Positions 1,128-11,190 of a stretch of DNA of 47,216 bases are shown in pieces. The notes under the pieces are model-generated. The model was not told the origin of the DNA and did not search any database. It was given only the letters and a program-made list of their open reading frames with translations. The stretch is from Rhodospirillaceae bacterium (GTDB lineage: Bacteria; Pseudomonadota; Alphaproteobacteria; GCA-2731375): contig JABIRL010000222.1 in assembly GCA_018667855.1 (NCBI GenBank), positions 1 through 47,216 of the forward strand, given 5' to 3'. Position 1 is the stretch's first letter, and each line of letters opens with the position of its first letter. Both the position numbers and the translations under genes were made by a program.

Positions 1128-2531
1128 ATGGTTAACGATTTATTGAAATTGTTAGCGTACTTGCGATCGCCGTGGAGTGGAATTTTCATGCTGCCAGACG
1201 GATTGATCGTACGATTGCCGCCTTCGGTGCGCGCCCTGTTCAGGTTGCTGGGCGGCGTGGTCGGGCGGAACTATCATCATGGCGAACGCAACCTAGTGGC
1301 GGTCAGTGTCTGTGGTGTGTTCGGCATGCCGCTGTACTATTTCGTCTGGCATGATCTGTTCCCCCAACCATACGAAAACCTGACACTGCGTCTGATCGGC
1401 GGCGCCCTGTGCATACCGCTCGCGTTCAAGGACCATTGGCCCGAAGGCATGCGCCGCTTCGCGCCGATACTCTGGTACGGCACTGTGTTGTACGTGTTGC
1501 CGTTTTTCTTCACCTATATGACCCTTCAAAACGATTTCGCGCCGGTCTGGCTGGTTTCCTTTATCGCGGCATTACTGCTGCTTGTTTTTCTGGTCGACTG
1601 GCTCAATCTGATCGTCCTTTCGGTATTTGGCATGTTGGTGGCCTGGATTGTGTTTACCCTGGGCAATGGTCAAGTCAGCGATCCCAACGTCTTCATGGAA
1701 TTGACTCCGGTGGTGTTGTTCGCCCTCGTCGTCGGCACTGTTTTCAGTTATCGCAACGAAACCCTGAAGCAGGAGCGCCTGGACGCCATGCTGATGGCCG
1801 GGCGGAACTTGTCCCGTGAACTGCGTGAGCCGCTCTTGGGCATTCGCACCAGCACGGTCAGCTTGAAGCGCTATTTGCCGCAATTGTTGGAGGCCCACGA
1901 ACTCGCAGAAAACAACGGCTTGGCGGTTCGGGAAATTTCAACGGGTCACCGGCGGGCCCTGGGCAATAGTCTTGAACGCCTGCAGCAGGAAACCAGTCAT
2001 GCCAGCACTATCATAGAGATGCTGCTGCGCAATACTGGCGGCGTACCGGTTGACCCATCTGAGTTTCAAGTGGTCTCCATGGCCGAATGCGTTGAAACAG
2101 CCCTGCAACGCTATCCATTCGCCTCGGAAGTGGAACGCAAGATCGTAAAGGTAAAAATGACCCGGGATTTCGGTTTTCTGGGATCGGACAGCGGAATGGT
2201 CCACGTCGTGCTTTCCTTGCTGAAAATTGCGCTTTCTTCCGTGGCCAAGTACGGCAAGGGCGAAGTCCTCATCGAATTGGCCACATCACCTGGCGATTGT
2301 GAATTACGCATTCGTGACAGCAGCGCAGGACCTCCCCCGGGACGCTTGGCCAACCTTTTCGACGAGTTTTCCTTGCTCGAGTCCGACAGCGGCACCGGTC
2401 CGGCCTTGGCCCAGGCGAAAAAATTGGTGGAGGCCTTCGCCGGCGCCATCGCCATTCGGTCGGAACGGGGACAGTTTACCGAATATGTCATTATCCTGCC
2501 GCCAGCGAGCGAAAGCGGCGCCGTTGTCTGA
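1128..2531 (+). CDS. CqsS-like membrane sensor protein with degenerate histidine-kinase core
   Basis: N-terminal multi-TM segment GVFGMPLYYFVWHDLFPQPYENLTLR...LPFFFTYMTLQNDFAPVWLVSFIAALLL resembles Vibrio CqsS as remembered; C-terminal HATPase-like region; H-box reads LSRELREPLLGI. Confidence 0.75.
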   Translation: MVNDLLKLLAYLRSPWSGIFMLPDGLIVRLPPSVRALFRLLGGVVGRNYHHGERNLVAVSVCGVFGMPLYYFVWHDLFPQPYENLTLRLIGGALCIPLAFKDHWPEGMRRFAPILWYGTVLYVLPFFFTYMTLQNDFAPVWLVSFIAALLLLVFLVDWLNLIVLSVFGMLVAWIVFTLGNGQVSDPNVFMELTPVVLFALVVGTVFSYRNETLKQERLDAMLMAGRNLSRELREPLLGIRTSTVSLKRYLPQLLEAHELAENNGLAVREISTGHRRALGNSLERLQQETSHASTIIEMLLRNTGGVPVDPSEFQVVSMAECVETALQRYPFASEVERKIVKVKMTRDFGFLGSDSGMVHVVLSLLKIALSSVAKYGKGEVLIELATSPGDCELRIRDSSAGPPPGRLANLFDEFSLLESDSGTGPALAQAKKLVEAFAGAIAIRSERGQFTEYVIILPPASESGAVV

Positions 2532-2593
2532 AGTTGCCCGCCGCATTCGTCTGTCGCCCTCATTCGCGCATGAGTTTCACGATGGGAAGTGGG

Positions 2594-3838
2594 ATGGCTG
2601 AACAGAAAATTTGGCCGGGCCTCCGCGGGTGGTTGGCCCGCGGCACTGCAATTTGTTTTTTTGGCCTGTCGCTTTTGGCGCCATCGGCGATCGCGTCGGA
2701 ATGGGACCTCGGCGGTTATGTGGCGTCTGAAATCCGTCTCTTTCCCAATTCGCCGGGTGATAAGGCCCAGAATTCGGATATTTATTCGACGGCTCTTACT
2801 TTGCAGCCAGAATTTCGCGCGCGGTCCGCATCCGGCACGGATCAGTTCGTCGCCATTCCCTTTCTGAAAGCGGATCAACACGACGACCACCGTAGCCATG
2901 GCGACCTGCGGGAGCTGTACTGGCAGCGCCAAGGGACAAATTGGTCGTTATTGGTGGGCCTGAACAGGGTCTTTTGGGGTGTCGCCGAGGCAAGGCACGT
3001 GGTCGACATCATCAATCAGACCGATCTGGTGGAAAGTCCGTTCGCCGAGGATAAGCTGGGCCAGGGGATGATAAATCTTCGCTACTTTGCCGATTTTGGG
3101 ACTTTTGATGGCTATTTTCTAACCGGGTTTCGTGACCGCAGCTTCCCTGATGACGAGGCACGGTTGCGCGGCGGTTTACCAATTGACACGGACAATCCGG
3201 TATTTGAATCCTCCGCCCGCCGCCGTCATATGGATTGGGCGCTGCGCTGGTCCAGGGTCATTGGTGATTGGGATATCGGCCTGTCGCAGTTTCGCGGTAC
3301 CGGACGCGAACCTAGATTGCAGCCGGGTCTACAGGCCAATGGCATGGCTCACCTGGTGCCGCACTACGACATCATTAATCAGACCGGACTGGATATACAA
3401 TATACCCATGATGCCTGGATCTGGAAGCTGGAAGGGTTTTCCCGGCATGGCCAGGGAGATCGCTTTTTGGCCCTTGCCGGCGGTTTCGAATACACTTTGT
3501 TTGATCTGGCGGGGCGCGGCATCGACCTGGGACTATTGGCGGAATATCTTTACGACAACCGCACCGCAGATGCTCCCGCAACGCACTTTGATGATGATAT
3601 ATTTGCGGGATTTCGCCTCGCCCTCAACGATGCCGCCGGTACCGAGGTAACGGGCGGCGCCATCATTGATAGGCATAGCCGGGCTGTATTGTTCTCCATT
3701 GAAGCCGCCTGGCGGGTAAACGACCGATGGCGCTTGAATGTTGAAGGCTTGGCATTTCACCGCGTACCAGTGCGCGATCCCCTTTATGGCGTGCGCAGAG
3801 ACGATTTCCTGCGATTACAACTGTCGCGGTTCTTTTGA
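2594..3838 (+). CDS. outer-membrane beta-barrel protein (porin/exporter-like)
   Basis: Signal peptide (GTAICFFGLSLLAPSAIASE), alternating amphipathic strands, terminal aromatic ...LQLSRFF; ORF opens at 2534, start chosen at MAEQ (2594), 2570 or 2582 also possible. Confidence 0.65.
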   Translation: MAEQKIWPGLRGWLARGTAICFFGLSLLAPSAIASEWDLGGYVASEIRLFPNSPGDKAQNSDIYSTALTLQPEFRARSASGTDQFVAIPFLKADQHDDHRSHGDLRELYWQRQGTNWSLLVGLNRVFWGVAEARHVVDIINQTDLVESPFAEDKLGQGMINLRYFADFGTFDGYFLTGFRDRSFPDDEARLRGGLPIDTDNPVFESSARRRHMDWALRWSRVIGDWDIGLSQFRGTGREPRLQPGLQANGMAHLVPHYDIINQTGLDIQYTHDAWIWKLEGFSRHGQGDRFLALAGGFEYTLFDLAGRGIDLGLLAEYLYDNRTADAPATHFDDDIFAGFRLALNDAAGTEVTGGAIIDRHSRAVLFSIEAAWRVNDRWRLNVEGLAFHRVPVRDPLYGVRRDDFLRLQLSRFF

Positions 3839-4692
3839 TGTCGGAGCCGGTTATGAGAAAGGCAAGACGAACCATGCCACAAACAGCATCCACGGGGTTT
3901 TCCTCGGCAAAGTTGTTTGCGACAGCCTTTCTGGTCTTTTCGGCCACCATGGCGAACGCCCAAGTCACGGCCAACCCGGCCAACAAGGGATTGGCCATTG
4001 CGTCGGTGGCGGATCAGCGCGATCACGGCTTCAAGGATTATTCGGCCGATGTGACCATGAAGCTGCGCAGCAAGACTGGTGGCGAAAGCCAGCGGCAGCT
4101 GAATATCAAAGTGCTGGAGGGCCGGGACGATGGTGACAAGAGCCTGATCGTCTTCAGTCGGCCTAGGGACATCAACGGCACGGCTCTGCTCACCTTTTCC
4201 CATAAGACGGGCAACGATGATCAATGGATCTATTTGCCCGCCTTAAAACGCGTCAAGCGGATCAGTTCCACCAATCGCTCGGGCGCGTTTGTCGGCAGCG
4301 AATTCGCTTACGAGGACCTGGTGCGCCCGGACGTGGCACGCTACACCTATCGATGGCTGCGCGACGAAACGATCGAAGCTCAACCCGTACATATTGTCGA
4401 GCGGACCCCAACTTACCGGAATTCCGGCTATAAACGCCAAATCGTCTGGTATGATCAGGCCGAGTTCCGCATCTTGCGGATTGACTTCTATGACCGCAAC
4501 AACGCTTTGTTGAAACGGTTCTCGGCTTCGGGTTACCAAATATATGAGCGCAAATATTGGCGACCGGCTCTTATGCTCATGGTCAATTTGCAAAATGGCA
4601 AGAGCACTAGTCTAGTTTGGAAAAACTATAAATTCGGCAACGGCTATAGCGACAGTTATTTCAACAAAAACAGAATCAAAAACCTTCGTTGA
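3838..4692 (+). CDS. LolA-like outer membrane lipoprotein-sorting protein
   Basis: Signal peptide ending ATMANAQ; DYSADVTMKLRSKTGGESQRQLNIKVLE...DQWIYLPALKRVKRISSTNRSGAFVGSEFAYEDL pattern of the LolA-like family often encoded with MMPL/RND exporters; ATG overlaps previous TGA by 1 nt. Confidence 0.75.
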   Translation: MSEPVMRKARRTMPQTASTGFSSAKLFATAFLVFSATMANAQVTANPANKGLAIASVADQRDHGFKDYSADVTMKLRSKTGGESQRQLNIKVLEGRDDGDKSLIVFSRPRDINGTALLTFSHKTGNDDQWIYLPALKRVKRISSTNRSGAFVGSEFAYEDLVRPDVARYTYRWLRDETIEAQPVHIVERTPTYRNSGYKRQIVWYDQAEFRILRIDFYDRNNALLKRFSASGYQIYERKYWRPALMLMVNLQNGKSTSLVWKNYKFGNGYSDSYFNKNRIKNLR

Positions 4693-4846: not shown

Positions 4847-6265
4847 ATGAGTTACGCCAATGGTACGGCGGAAGGGCACGGATTGGAAACGGCGACGAAG
4901 GCCGAAGGCGCCAGCAGCGCCTTGGTCGGGTCGCGCACGCCTTTACGTCATGAGGAAATCAGCCGCTTTCTCGTGGTCAGCCGGACAAATATCGCAATCG
5001 AACCCATTGCTTCGGTGCTTTTTGCCATTGGCCTCTGGCAATATGGCGACATACGGCGGATCGGCATCTGGTTGGCGTTAATATGGGCGCTGGCCGTATT
5101 GCGCCTATTGTTGAACCTGCACATCCAACGCACGGATCTGGCCGAGGAACGCTTGGCGGAATGGGGCTTTGCGGTATCCGCCGTCACCACTTTGGCGGGC
5201 GGCTTATGGGCCAGCGGCCTTCTGTTTCTCTGGCCGGTGGGTACGGAACCGCTGGCCAACGCACTTGGGTTTTTTCTGGTCGTCCCGATCATGGCGGTTG
5301 CCGGTATCGTCGTGGTGACCGTGGCGGTTCATGTACTTGCGGTCCTACCTTATCTGTTGGTCACAGGTATCGTGGCGGCGATCTGTTTGCTGTGGCAGCC
5401 GACGGCAAGTTCCGCCTTGCCTGTCACATTGCCCCTCATGGGGCTTATCGTGGCCATCGTGATGCTGGCAGCACTTGGCTGGTGGGTTAACAGTCTACAT
5501 GCGCGGCAGGCGCAGCTGAGTAAGGAACTGGATGCCGCGCACGAGGCGGCGAAAGCCGCCCATCTAACCAAGTCTGAATTTGTCGCCAACATTTCTCATG
5601 AACTGCGCACGCCCCTGAACGCCATCAACGGTTTCTCGGAAATTATCAAGGATCAGGCCTTCGGTCCGATCGACACCCCGCAATATCTGGAATACGCCAA
5701 CGATATTTACGAAAGCGGCGGCCGTCTGCTCGAGGTTATCAACGACATTCTCGAGCTTTCAAACCTTGAAACCGGCAAAATGTCATTCGCCGAAGAATGG
5801 GTCGATGTGCGGGCGGTCGTTCATTCCGTCATTGATGCCGCGCTGGCGCGGGCCGACGAAGCCGGCGTTACCCTGCAGGAAATTGCATCGGATCGTCCGA
5901 TCTTTTTGCTGGCGGATCGCCAATTGCTCAAACAAATTCTGTCCAATTTGGTTTCCAACGCCGTCAAGTTCACCCCACTCGGCGGCGAGGTCACGGTCGA
6001 GGTGAAGTTCGGGCCCACCGGCGACCTGATGATGATCGTCAACGACAATGGCATCGGTATGTCACCCGAAGACATCGCCACGGCGCAGACGCCATTCGGC
6101 CAGGCCGATGCTTCGCTGGCCCGGCGTTTCGAGGGTACCGGCCTCGGCATCCCGTTGGTGAAATCGTTGGTTGAATTGCACGGCGGGACGTTCCGTCTGC
6201 AAAGTGACTTGAGTGTCGGAACCCGTGCGATTGCAAAATTTCCGGCGAACAGCATACAAAAGTAG
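4847..6265 (+). CDS. membrane sensor histidine kinase (HisKA + HATPase_c)
   Basis: About 6 TM segments followed by FVANISHELRTPLNAINGFSEII H-box, LSNLVSNAVKFTP N-box, DNGIGM, GTGLGIPLVKSLVELHGG. Confidence 0.9.
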   Translation: MSYANGTAEGHGLETATKAEGASSALVGSRTPLRHEEISRFLVVSRTNIAIEPIASVLFAIGLWQYGDIRRIGIWLALIWALAVLRLLLNLHIQRTDLAEERLAEWGFAVSAVTTLAGGLWASGLLFLWPVGTEPLANALGFFLVVPIMAVAGIVVVTVAVHVLAVLPYLLVTGIVAAICLLWQPTASSALPVTLPLMGLIVAIVMLAALGWWVNSLHARQAQLSKELDAAHEAAKAAHLTKSEFVANISHELRTPLNAINGFSEIIKDQAFGPIDTPQYLEYANDIYESGGRLLEVINDILELSNLETGKMSFAEEWVDVRAVVHSVIDAALARADEAGVTLQEIASDRPIFLLADRQLLKQILSNLVSNAVKFTPLGGEVTVEVKFGPTGDLMMIVNDNGIGMSPEDIATAQTPFGQADASLARRFEGTGLGIPLVKSLVELHGGTFRLQSDLSVGTRAIAKFPANSIQK

Positions 6266-6271
6266 GAGTTG

Positions 6272-6289
6272 CGCCCCGGCAGCGGGGCG
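6272..6289 (+). other. GC-rich hairpin CGCCCCG-GCAG-CGGGGCG between kinase stop and CqsA-like start
   Basis: Perfect 7-bp stem with 4-nt loop, 10 nt upstream of ATG 6299, no T-run. Confidence 0.4.
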
Positions 6290-6298
6290 TTGGTAACA

Positions 6299-7630
6299 AT
6301 GCGAGACCGAGAACAAGAAACAACGCCCGCACATGCGCCGGAAAACTGGGGCGAGCTGCCATCGCTGGGTCGCCGAATAGAGCGATACCATCGGCGCATT
6401 GAAAACGGTCATCCCCTGTTGGGCCGGCAACCGGACCGCAATTCTATTGAACTATCCGGCAACGATTATCTTTGCCTCGGTGTGCATTCGGCCATCATTG
6501 AGGCGCAGGTCGCCGTCATGCAGGGTGGCGGGGACGACGTATATATGTCGGCGGCCTTTCTGACCGATGGCACCATGCAACGCGCCGTGGAACGGAAAAC
6601 GGCCGCTTTTCTGGGCACGGAGGATGCCGTGCTGTGCCAATCGGGCTGGTGCGCGAACCTGGGCCTGATGCAGGCAATCACCGATCAGGATAGCCTGGTC
6701 TACCTCGATCCGAGCGTCCATGCGGCATTCTGGGACGGTGCCCGCAGTACCGGTTCGAAGATCCGACCGTTCCGCCACAACAGTCCGGAAAGCCTGGAAA
6801 GCAAAATCAAAAGACACGGCGTTGGCATTGTCGTCGTCTCGGCCGTTTACGGTAGCGACGGTACCGTTTGCCCCTTGTTGGAGATAGCGGATATCGCGGA
6901 ACGATATGGCTGTGAGATTGTCGTCGACGAAACCCATTCGATTGGTGTTTTCGGCCGGCAAGGGCAGGGCCTGGTCTCGGACCTGGGGCTGCGGGAAAAG
7001 GTCACATATCGTACCTTCAGCCTTTCCAAGGCCATGGTGACACGGGCCGGCATGGTTACGGGCCCGGCCCGGATCCTGGACTTTTTCCGTTTTGAATCCC
7101 GCCCCGCGATTTTTAGTTCAGCCGTCCTGCCACATGAGGTGGCCGGTCTCGGCGCGGCCCTGAATGTTATTCAAGAGGAAGATTGGCGCCGCGAACGCCT
7201 GCGCCGCAACACCAGCGCCTTGCGCGGCCGATTGATTGAATTGGGATTTGGCATACCTGCGAATGGTTCGCACATCATCCCGCTCCTGGCCGGCCCTGAA
7301 GAAGCGGCGATCGTACTTCGCGATGCGCTTGAGCGGCATGACCTGTTTGGCACCCTGATATGCGCACCGGCGACCACGCGAAACGGCGCCTTGGTGCGCC
7401 TGTCGATCAATTCCGGATTGATCGAGGACGACCTGCAGCGCATCGCGGGTGCCTGTGCTGCCATCCGCGATGAAATTCCGGTCAGCCGCTGGCCGATTAC
7501 GCTGCGTCTAGGGGTTGCCGCCCTGGCCGGTGATGGCGCCGCCGGTCCGTCGAAGAATTTCAGGGCGTCAGGCGCCGCTGTTGATGAGGCTTCAACCGGG
7601 TCCGACAAACAACAAAGGCGGATTGGGTGA
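6299..7630 (+). CDS. CqsA-like alpha-oxoamine synthase (PLP-dependent acyltransferase), copy 1
   Basis: Full-length: SGNDYLCL, YMSAAFL, LCQSGWCANLGLMQAI, VVDETHSIGVFGRQGQGL, PLP-lysine region RTFSLSKAMVTRAG, FSSAVLPHE; CqsA/LqsA/KBL-like. Confidence 0.85.
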   Translation: MRDREQETTPAHAPENWGELPSLGRRIERYHRRIENGHPLLGRQPDRNSIELSGNDYLCLGVHSAIIEAQVAVMQGGGDDVYMSAAFLTDGTMQRAVERKTAAFLGTEDAVLCQSGWCANLGLMQAITDQDSLVYLDPSVHAAFWDGARSTGSKIRPFRHNSPESLESKIKRHGVGIVVVSAVYGSDGTVCPLLEIADIAERYGCEIVVDETHSIGVFGRQGQGLVSDLGLREKVTYRTFSLSKAMVTRAGMVTGPARILDFFRFESRPAIFSSAVLPHEVAGLGAALNVIQEEDWRRERLRRNTSALRGRLIELGFGIPANGSHIIPLLAGPEEAAIVLRDALERHDLFGTLICAPATTRNGALVRLSINSGLIEDDLQRIAGACAAIRDEIPVSRWPITLRLGVAALAGDGAAGPSKNFRASGAAVDEASTGSDKQQRRIG

Positions 7631-10600
7631 TGGCCTTCAGTCCACTCGTCCAGGCCTATTGCGAGTTTCTGCTTCGCCGCCGCTGGATGGTCGCCGTCCT
7701 GTCCGTATTGATATGTCTGGCGATCAGTTCCGGTGCTCTTCACCTGGCGACCACACCGGACAATCGTGTTTTCTTCGGCACCAGCAATCCGGATCTGAAG
7801 GCATTCGAAACGCTGGAGGCGGCATATCGTGAAGGCAACGATGTGTTGCTTGCGGTCGCGCCGGCAACGGGTGACATTTTCACCCCGGATCGTCTGACAA
7901 TGGTGCGTGAGCTGACGGAAGCCTTATGGTCCGGGCCGTACGTTACGCGGGTGGATTCTATAACTAATTTTCAACACTCACATGTCGTCGGCGATGAACT
8001 GATCATCGATGATTTGGTATCGGACCGTTCGCAGCTGACCGAAAGTTCGATTTCCGAGATCCGCCGCGTGGCCTTGACGGATCCATCCCTGGGCGGATTG
8101 CTGATTTCCCGCGACGGCCGTGTCACGGGCGTGGCGATCAATTTTCGTCTGCCGGAAAAAACACCGGAAGCGATCCGCGAGATCGTTGCGCACCTACATG
8201 ACCTCGAAGCCGATATCGAAGCCCGGCACCCCGACATCAATATCCATATGACCGGAAATATCATGCTGATGGCCGCCTTCGACGAGGCCAGCCTGGATGA
8301 TATGATGACGCTGATACCGGCCATGTTCGTCGCCATCGTGGTGATAATGACGATACTGGTACGTTCTTTCGCCGGCATGGCCGCCGTTGTGTTGTTGGCG
8401 GTCCTGTCGTCCATGACGGCGGTGGGCGTGGCGGGCTGGTCCGGCGTCGTGATCAATGCGGGTTCTTCCTCGGCGCCGCTGATCATTCTGACCATGGCGT
8501 TGGCCTACGGCGTACATTTGGTGACGAAGTTTCTATCCGACTTCGGCTCGGGCTGGTCGAAGCGCGAGGCCATCGTCAATTCGGTTGAATTCAATCTCTC
8601 GCCGGTATCCTTGACCTCGGTGACCTCGGCCATCGGGTTCCTGTCCATGAACGGCAGTGACGCGCCGCCCTTTCACGATTTGGGCACCATCGTGGCGGTC
8701 GGCGTAACCACCGCCTTTTTCCTGTCTTTTACTTTCGTGCCGGCCTTTTTGGCCATCATGCGCATCGAAAAACCGCGCAAACGTATCTTCGGTCAGCGCC
8801 TTTCCATCGCCTTGGGCAGCTTTGTCGTGAGCCATCGGCGCTGGGTATTCTGGACCATGTCGGCGCTGATCGTGGTGCTGGCCACCGGTATTTCGCGCAT
8901 TGAGCTGAACGATGATTGGGTCGGCTATTTTGATGAGCGTTTCGAGTTCCGTCACGACACCGAATTCATCCTTGAAAATCTGACCGGCATCGATCTTCTG
9001 GAATACTCAATTCCGGCGATGGGTGAGCAGGGTATTTTCGAGCCGTCCTATTTGAAAATGCTTGATAAATTCACCACCTGGCTCCGCAAACAGCCCGAAG
9101 TCGTGAATGTGCAATCCTTGAGCGATATCATGCGGCGTCTGAACCGGGATCTGAACGGCGGCGGCGAGGATGCCTATACACTGCCGCAGGAACGGGACTT
9201 GGCGGCGCAGTATTTGCTGTTGTACGAAATGTCGCTGCCCCGTGGCCTTGATCTCAATGACCGCATCAAGGTCGACCGCTCGGGAACCCGCGTCAGCGTG
9301 ATGTTGCGCCGGGATGGGGCCAACCTGCCTTCCAAGGATCTGCGGCCGCTGGCCCTGCGGATCGATGCCTGGCTGGCCCGAAATGGCGACACGGCGCGGG
9401 ACGCCAAGGGCAGTGGTATTTCGCTGATGTTCGCCTACCTTTCGGAACGAAACATCTCGGCCATGCTGGTCAGCACCGCGTTCGCCCTGTTGCTGATTTC
9501 CGGCATCCTGGTGCTGGCATTGCGCAGCATCAAGATCGGCATCGCCTCCCTGGTGCCGAATTTCGTGCCGGCTATCATGGGTTTTGGCCTGTGGGGCTAT
9601 CTGCAGGGCGAGGTCGGGGTCGCCGTCTCGGTCGTGGCGGCCATGACGTTCGGTATCGTCGTGGATGACACCATCCATTTTCTCTCGAAGTATCTGCAGG
9701 GCCGCCGAGAGCTGGGCAAGGCTCCGGAAGAAGCGATTTTGTATTCCTTCCGCTCGGTCGGCACGGCACTGATGGTGACGACACTTGTGCTCGTGGCTGG
9801 ATTTCTTGTTCTGGCTACCTCCGGCTTTAAGGTGTCGAGCAGCCTGGGCCTGTTGACGGCAATCGTATTGGCGCTGGCCTTGATCGCGGATTTTCTGTTT
9901 CTTCCCAGCCTGTTGTTGCAGTTCGACCGGGTGGCCAAGGATGTCGCCGGCGATCTGACGGTACTGGCCGATGACACGCGATCCCTGGAACTGCCGGGAT
10001 TAACCCAGCGGGTGCGGAAATACCTTGAACGGATTCGCGACGGACTTCCCCTGCGCGGCAAGCCGCCCGGGGACAACGCGATCGAATTGTGGAGCAACGA
10101 CTACCTGTCGATTGCCGGGCATCCGAAAATCGTGCGGGCGCAGTCCGACCTGCTGCGCGGCAACCGCGAACGGCCGTTCATGTCGGCCGCGCTGCTTGCC
10201 AAGAATGCCCCGCAACGCAGTGTCGAGGGACAGTTGGCGGCCTTCCTGGGGGTCGAGGATACGGTGCTGTGCCAATCGGGCTGGTGCGCCAATGTGGATT
10301 TGTTGCAGACAATCGCCGACCAGGATACGCCGATCTATCTTGATATCTATGTGCATGCCTCCCTATGGGAAGGGGCGCGAATGTCCAAGGCGCCGATCCA
10401 TCCCTTTCGCCACAATCAGCCCGGCAGCCTGGCGAAAAAGGCCCAGCGCCACGGACCCGGCATCGTCGTCGTGGATGCCATTTACAGCTCCAATGGTGAT
10501 GTTTGCCCCATGGTGGAAATCGTCGAAGTGGCCGAACAACACGGCTGCCTGCTGGTGGTCGATGAAAGCCATTCAGTCGGCACATATGGCGCCAATGGCG

Positions 10601-11190
10601 AGGGCCTGGTGGCCAGCCTGGGATTGTCGGATCGGGTGCATTACCGCACTCTCAGCCTCTCCAAGGCGTTCGCGACACGGGCCGGTTTGGTGGCGGGTCC
10701 CGCCCGCGTCATGGAGTTCTTTCGCCATGAGGCCCGCTCCATGCTGTTCAGTTCGGCAATCATGCCCCATGAAATTGCTGGATTGCGGGCCACCTTGGAA
10801 GTCATTCAGAGCGAGGGCTGGCGGCGCGAAAAGCTATGGGAGAGGGCAACCTATCTGCGCCGGCGGCTAAGCGAACTGGGCTACAACGTCGATGAAAGCG
10901 ACTCCCAGGTTGTCGCCCTGGAGGCGGGCCCGGAACGGCGCAGCATGCAGCTTCGCGATGCCCTGGAAAATGCCGGAATTTTCGGCGCGGTCTTTTGTGC
11001 GCCCGCGACCCCGCAAAACCGCTCCCTCATCCGCCTGTCCATAAACAGCGCCCTTACCGACGCCCAGGTCGAGCGTATCATCCGCGTCTGCGCCGACGTT
11101 CGCGACGCGGTGGATCTGGACACCTGGCCCTCCACCCTGCGCCGCCGCAATCGACGCAATGCCGTTCACAAAGTGGCGCCGGCCACGTAG
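7627..11190 (+). CDS. fusion protein: MMPL/HAE3-family RND exporter (N-terminal, ~780 aa) + CqsA-like alpha-oxoamine synthase copy 2 (C-terminal, ~400 aa)
   Basis: One open 1187-aa frame; two large loops and 12-TM RND pattern incl. MTFGIVVDDTIHFLSKYLQGRR; then LWSNDYLSIAGHPKIVRAQ, FMSAALLAK, LCQSGWCANVDLLQTI, VHASLWEGARMSKAPIHPFRHNQ, VVDESHSVGTYGANGEGL, RTLSLSKAFATRAG. GTG 7627 or ATG 7630 start. Confidence 0.9.
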   Translation: MMAFSPLVQAYCEFLLRRRWMVAVLSVLICLAISSGALHLATTPDNRVFFGTSNPDLKAFETLEAAYREGNDVLLAVAPATGDIFTPDRLTMVRELTEALWSGPYVTRVDSITNFQHSHVVGDELIIDDLVSDRSQLTESSISEIRRVALTDPSLGGLLISRDGRVTGVAINFRLPEKTPEAIREIVAHLHDLEADIEARHPDINIHMTGNIMLMAAFDEASLDDMMTLIPAMFVAIVVIMTILVRSFAGMAAVVLLAVLSSMTAVGVAGWSGVVINAGSSSAPLIILTMALAYGVHLVTKFLSDFGSGWSKREAIVNSVEFNLSPVSLTSVTSAIGFLSMNGSDAPPFHDLGTIVAVGVTTAFFLSFTFVPAFLAIMRIEKPRKRIFGQRLSIALGSFVVSHRRWVFWTMSALIVVLATGISRIELNDDWVGYFDERFEFRHDTEFILENLTGIDLLEYSIPAMGEQGIFEPSYLKMLDKFTTWLRKQPEVVNVQSLSDIMRRLNRDLNGGGEDAYTLPQERDLAAQYLLLYEMSLPRGLDLNDRIKVDRSGTRVSVMLRRDGANLPSKDLRPLALRIDAWLARNGDTARDAKGSGISLMFAYLSERNISAMLVSTAFALLLISGILVLALRSIKIGIASLVPNFVPAIMGFGLWGYLQGEVGVAVSVVAAMTFGIVVDDTIHFLSKYLQGRRELGKAPEEAILYSFRSVGTALMVTTLVLVAGFLVLATSGFKVSSSLGLLTAIVLALALIADFLFLPSLLLQFDRVAKDVAGDLTVLADDTRSLELPGLTQRVRKYLERIRDGLPLRGKPPGDNAIELWSNDYLSIAGHPKIVRAQSDLLRGNRERPFMSAALLAKNAPQRSVEGQLAAFLGVEDTVLCQSGWCANVDLLQTIADQDTPIYLDIYVHASLWEGARMSKAPIHPFRHNQPGSLAKKAQRHGPGIVVVDAIYSSNGDVCPMVEIVEVAEQHGCLLVVDESHSVGTYGANGEGLVASLGLSDRVHYRTLSLSKAFATRAGLVAGPARVMEFFRHEARSMLFSSAIMPHEIAGLRATLEVIQSEGWRREKLWERATYLRRRLSELGYNVDESDSQVVALEAGPERRSMQLRDALENAGIFGAVFCAPATPQNRSLIRLSINSALTDAQVERIIRVCADVRDAVDLDTWPSTLRRRNRRNAVHKVAPAT

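Follow-up and report, generated by a model that had tools for sequence, protein, structure and literature searches.

The question raised by this locus is whether a CqsS-like receptor that has lost its phospho-acceptor histidine can still act as a kinase and, if it cannot, how it might signal. The receptor, here called psCqsS, lies in the window, by which we mean the whole 47,216-nucleotide stretch of Rhodospirillaceae bacterium DNA that was analyzed. An earlier note, made from the sequence alone, had proposed that the protein is a pseudo-histidine kinase that may sense ligand without autophosphorylating, and that it acts as an allosteric partner of the kinase encoded at 4847-6265. The psCqsS product is made up of a leader, a six-TM sensor (~aa 41-207), a DHp-like hairpin (~208-302), and an eroded HATPase domain (~314-460), with the following features:

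1128-2531, + strand: psCqsS, putative CqsS-like pseudo-histidine kinase (467 aa)
1248-1748, + strand: six-TM alpha-hydroxyketone sensor domain
1812-1835, + strand: degenerate H-box S-R-E-L-R-E-P-L (aa 229-236)
2214-2231, + strand: degenerate N-box S-L-L-K-I-A (aa 363-368; canonical N-L-x-K-N-A)
2313-2342, + strand: degenerate G1 box R-D-S-S-A-G-P-P-P-G (aa 396-405), with Asp397 kept and the first Gly lost
2391-2423, + strand: degenerate G2 box G-T-G-P-A-L-A-Q-A-K-K (aa 422-432)

All of the motifs that the earlier note had listed were present at their positions in this product, including the sensor-half signature (GMPLYYFVWHDLFPQPYENLTLR at aa 66-88 and LPFFFTYMTLQND at aa 124-136). The H-box is encoded by TCC CGT GAA CTG CGT GAG CCG CTC (nt 1812-1835), in which Arg230 (CGT, 1815-1817) occupies the phospho-acceptor position, sharing a column with H194 of Vibrio cholerae in alignments of 27 to 29 rows, and E234 stands in place of the phosphatase-motif Thr/Asn. 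Both Asn residues of the N-box are gone. The criteria for an active HisKA-type kinase (H-box His, N-box Asn, and G1/G2 glycines) were therefore not met, and those for a pseudo-histidine kinase at the sequence level (fold kept, catalytic residues lost, and selection on the gene) were. Pfam HATPase_c matched psCqsS at 41.5 bits (cut-off, 26.4), indicating that the HATPase fold is retained. An AlphaFold2 model built from 27 sequences, with rows from plasmid records left out (pLDDT, 83.8), showed TM helices, an unbroken helix into the DHp-like hairpin, and a histidine kinase (HK)-type ATPase fold, with the ATP-lid region (G2) modelled poorly and at low confidence; a fold search with this model returned many histidine kinase cores, DivL (4q20) among them. 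Pfam HisKA matched only below its cut-off (26.9), which we rejected as evidence of a pseudokinase, since the canonical sensors Vibrio CqsS (24.4) and L045 (26.7) miss it too. Domain searches of the 467-aa product found no receiver domain and no PAS domain, the six-TM sensor standing instead of the latter. The missing receiver had been set against Vibrio CqsS in the earlier note; the absence was confirmed, but it is not a distinctive trait, as the nearest His-intact relatives (L073 and L074) and Legionella pneumophila LqsS (PMC3376566) also lack one.

To see how far the loss extends, CqsS-like sensors were sought in relatives, 385 class (alphaproteobacterial) genomes, 399 phylum genomes, GTDB contigs, and plasmids, and the H-, N-, and G-boxes were read in 51 of them. 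These samples are partial, and several members of the clade described here come from metagenome assemblies; a repeat draw of class genomes gave identical members. The H-box His was present in 44 of 44 canonical sensors (AHEMRNPL, AHELRTPL, and similar) and absent in every member of one alphaproteobacterial clade that includes the window protein. The earlier note had asked whether orthologues share the change to Arg; they have all lost the His, and the position is held by Arg in the window, Asn in SI072_bin90, Arg in B38T1L10, Lys in G015, and Arg in Tistrella. The corresponding strings are LSRELREPL in the window, LSNELREPL in L009 and L011 (one gene present in two collections), VAREIRAPL in L010, LSKELRPPL in L012 (genome G015), and AGRMVQTPL in Tistrella (L013, L040, and L052). 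The N-box Asn is lost in the window, L009, and L010; L012 retains the N-box and G1 box despite its His loss, and the Tistrella receptors, from three genomes of which one matches plasmid pTM3, keep the DHp-like hairpin but have lost the entire HATPase domain. In a maximum-likelihood tree, the His-less receptors formed one clade with moderate support (84/61), and a single origin is probable; its sister is the G424/G605 pair, which keeps the His and in G424 is encoded beside a receiver-domain gene. No alternative H-box His, which would have refuted the earlier claim, emerged in the orthologues: His274 is invariant in the clade but lies ~44 residues downstream of the H-box position, past the hairpin turn. 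Arg230 and the clade-wide loss indicate that psCqsS descends from the CqsS/LqsS family and is not a functional CqsS-type kinase. Its designation as a pseudo-histidine kinase is thus supported by the clade-wide His loss, the erosion of the N- and G-boxes, the Tistrella ATPase loss, and purifying selection, in the absence of any activity data.

The gene is evidently maintained. Against the L009 orthologue, the whole gene gave a dN of 0.106 and a dS of 0.93 (dN/dS, ~0.11), and dN/dS values were low by region as well (sensor, 0.07/0.73; DHp-like, 0.10/0.96), even in the eroded ATPase-like domain (0.089/1.4). Identity to the L009 locus was 83% for the receptor versus 70% for the neighboring kinase. 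In the sensor, W104, S107, and F162 of V. cholerae CqsS are kept as W141, S144, and F198, and F206 matches C170, the chain-length position, with Phe as in V. harveyi-type CqsS; the roles of these residues in autoinducer contact and chain length are taken from PMC3376566. Two of the family criteria, a sensor matching Vibrio and other CqsS-like sensors and a CqsA-type synthase near the receptor, were met; two synthase domains are encoded in the window, and in G015 a CqsA-type synthase adjoins the receptor. The genes downstream of psCqsS are as follows:

2534-3838, + strand: 434-aa protein with no Pfam/NCBIfam family, conserved in the L009 and L010 loci, presumably outer-membrane or periplasmic
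3835-4692, + strand: LolA_like outer-membrane lipoprotein-sorting protein (PF17131)
4847-6265, + strand: proposed partner histidine kinase (six-TM sensor, HisKA, and HATPase_c)
6269-7630, + strand: CqsA-type alpha-hydroxyketone autoinducer synthase (NF005526, 450 bits; cut-off, 428)
7627-11190, + strand: MMPL/RND exporter fused to a second CqsA-type synthase domain (aa 809-1170, NF005526, 503.6 bits)

The kept ligand residues, and a gene run that also includes two synthase domains, lend weight to the earlier suggestion that ligand sensing is retained. By sequence, psCqsS should still bind an alpha-hydroxyketone autoinducer, with both binding and ligand identity inferred.

The exporter-synthase fusion, a single open frame, was also found in L009, L010, and contig C86 of G009. 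It is noteworthy because LAI-1, a related signal, had been said to leave the cell by an unknown route until an outer-membrane-vesicle study appeared (PMC10692735). In Tistrella (G047:C6, G175:C4, and G272:C4), the replicon that carries the pseudokinase and its kinase also encodes a CqsA-type synthase, ~36 kb from the pair. CqsA loci of a second kind (L147, L150, L151, L152, and L153) occur in the window genus and G015; in these, the synthase stands beside a complete HK with a different N-terminal membrane sensor and without a CqsS-like protein. Remnants were seen in three genomes. In G009 (L146, 11524-12939), CqsA carries an in-frame fusion to a transposase N-terminus (DUF772), and none of the genes for the receptor, the presumed outer-membrane protein, the LolA-like protein, or the kinase is present, consistent with insertion-sequence-mediated loss. 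In G003 (L099, 9791-10165), about the first 70 receptor codons are left and the remainder of the cluster is gone; the aldo/keto reductase gene next to this remnant is found at the border of the intact L009/L011 locus as well. At the end of G007 contig C97 (L100, 1-1420), the receptor leader, the outer-membrane gene, and RND exporter fragments are joined in one frame, either as a deletion chimera or as an assembly artefact.

psCqsS resembles Vibrio CqsS and Legionella LqsS in that its six-TM sensor is homologous and shares their ligand positions, in its DHp-like hairpin and HATPase fold, and in a nearby CqsA-type synthase, and LqsS also in having no receiver domain. It differs from them in having lost the phospho-acceptor His and the residues of the ATP site and in the separate, complete kinase alongside. 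This kinase has an intact H-box (His251, nt 5597-5599), N-box, and G-boxes, and is PdhS/DivJ-like, its top NCBIfam model being DivJ, under the curated cut-off. A generic HK profile detected exactly one additional HK gene in each of the seven His-less loci versus none of the 10 His-intact loci. The seven represent four lineages and several gene arrangements: receptor and HK lie on the same strand with two genes between them in the window and L009, on opposite strands in L010 and G015, and directly adjacent in Tistrella, with the HK stop and psCqsS start ~5 nt apart. Since order and strand differ between lineages, the linkage appears to have been kept through rearrangement, although with a probable single origin the 7/7 association is not a count of independent events.

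The six-TM sensor of the partner kinase could be aligned across the pseudokinase loci. Among the 385 alphaproteobacterial genomes, matches to the partner profile above 250 bits were confined to five pseudokinase genomes, the next reaching 80 bits, a gap that is partly built in because the profile was made from these same kinases. In 13 His-intact genomes the profile never scored higher than 64 bits, and G003, G007, and G009, which belong to the window genus and lack the receptor, gave no match. With leave-one-out HK-sensor profiles, the G015 kinase scored 98 to 111 bits versus 62 to 65 for its rival; Tistrella scored 80 to 82 bits versus 82 for the best unrelated HK, so the partnership there rests mainly on adjacency. 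We dropped the HK-core tree as proof of co-inheritance, since it left the partners unresolved as one clade. The proposed allosteric partnership is thus supported by a conserved neighborhood (7/7 versus 0/10) and by the absence of the partner from sampled genomes without the pseudokinase. This support comes from comparative genomics, not biochemistry; interaction and activity are inferred. The two proteins also differ in the linker that joins the last TM core and the H-box position: it is ~24 residues long in psCqsS (estimated in this way at 17 in G015) versus 33 to 40 in the partner, which fits poorly with a simple in-register DHp heterodimer. The partner-kinase model (pLDDT, 64.7) was of low confidence and was used for helix layout only.

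On balance, we favor the explanation that psCqsS is a CqsS/LqsS-family pseudokinase sensing for the neighboring complete kinase, and we hold it as probable without being secure. A receptor kept beside a second, complete kinase suggests that the two probably divide sensing and catalysis between them. In this scheme, psCqsS would bind an alpha-hydroxyketone autoinducer made by the CqsA-type synthases encoded alongside it; psCqsS, presumed incapable of autophosphorylation or H-box phosphatase action, would pass the ligand signal to the 4847-6265 kinase by direct contact through the TM bundle, the DHp-like hairpin, or both; and that kinase would phosphorylate a response regulator encoded elsewhere. 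The lack of activity is inferred, as are the sense of the control, whether activating or inhibitory, and the regulator downstream. It could be argued against this explanation that the HK association is one ancestral event plus linkage, and that the cytosolic constraint equally reflects binding to something else.

There are precedents for such an arrangement. In Pseudomonas aeruginosa, control of the kinase GacS by the kinase-like receptor RetS works through direct contact, as is proposed here for psCqsS; RetS is a hybrid kinase with a sensor that differs from that of psCqsS. In group A Streptococcus, the kinase-like proteins FasB and FasC likewise each have six TM helices and are encoded together; one of them can do without its ATPase domain, and the two have been proposed to be sensing and catalytic halves; the Fas-like criterion of a co-encoded complete kinase is met by the locus counts given above. 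Unlike psCqsS, FasC retains an essential His, and the Fas proteins belong to other sensor and HK families, with no link to such an autoinducer synthase. Influence on partner kinases has been described for DivL (PMC4211667), FasC (PMC12675982), and an evolved ChrS variant, which acts through HrrS (PMC9491836).

DivL of Caulobacter, which controls the kinase CckA, is likewise an alphaproteobacterial pseudo-histidine kinase with a retained fold, and it also suggests a reversed role in which psCqsS, not acting on the neighboring kinase, uses its DHp/ATPase fold to bind a response regulator, for which it would be a scaffold or sink gated by ligand. DivL binds DivK~P without kinase or phosphatase activity (PMC4211667) and was among the cores returned by the fold search, and the ATPase-like domain of psCqsS is eroded yet strongly conserved. 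We nevertheless consider this reversal unlikely, since no response regulator was found beside the pseudokinase loci except an NtrC-type gene ~6 kb away in Tistrella, where the ATPase domain is entirely lost, and since it leaves the conserved kinase neighbor unexplained. DivL moreover senses DivK~P through PAS and DHp/CA, whereas psCqsS has a membrane autoinducer sensor, and the two are related through the HK core only.

psCqsS could also remain in a phosphorelay by way of an unconventional acceptor such as His274, with the partner kinase as its phosphate donor in trans; this would suit the invariance of that residue and has a precedent in FasC H246, proposed to be phosphorylated by FasB (PMC12675982). 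We give it little credence, as His274 lies where the second DHp helix begins, outside any H-box, and also occurs in some canonical relatives that retain the H-box His. Equally doubtful is a decoy that sequesters autoinducer or tunes export without signalling; the fact that synthases and an RND exporter share a gene run with psCqsS is compatible with this, but the constraint on the cytosolic half and the kinase neighbor would go unexplained, and Tistrella retains the DHp-like hairpin though its ATPase domain is gone. Finally, a decaying pseudogene can be rejected with near confidence despite the locus remnants in G003 and G007 and the transposase remnant at the G009 locus, given the open frame and dN/dS of ~0.11, as can an active kinase misread through sequence error, given that the His is absent in independent assemblies and species.

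The open-access literature that we searched held no description of a CqsS-family pseudokinase; subscription papers were outside its scope. A more specific form of the favored explanation, in which control of a PdhS/DivJ-type kinase is the only output of the pseudokinase and an alpha-hydroxyketone signal possibly enters the DivK/CtrA cell-cycle network, is speculative and rather improbable on present evidence, and with no adjacent response regulator and a DivJ match below cut-off, the DivK/CtrA link is only a lead. The known receptors of the CqsS family perform their own phosphotransfer; in the His-less clade, sensing and catalysis appear to be split between two co-encoded proteins. The clade thereby offers a natural series for signalling without catalysis, from His loss through ATP-site erosion to deletion of the ATPase domain in Tistrella, and the partner hypothesis may be reduced to two proteins and a known class of ligand.
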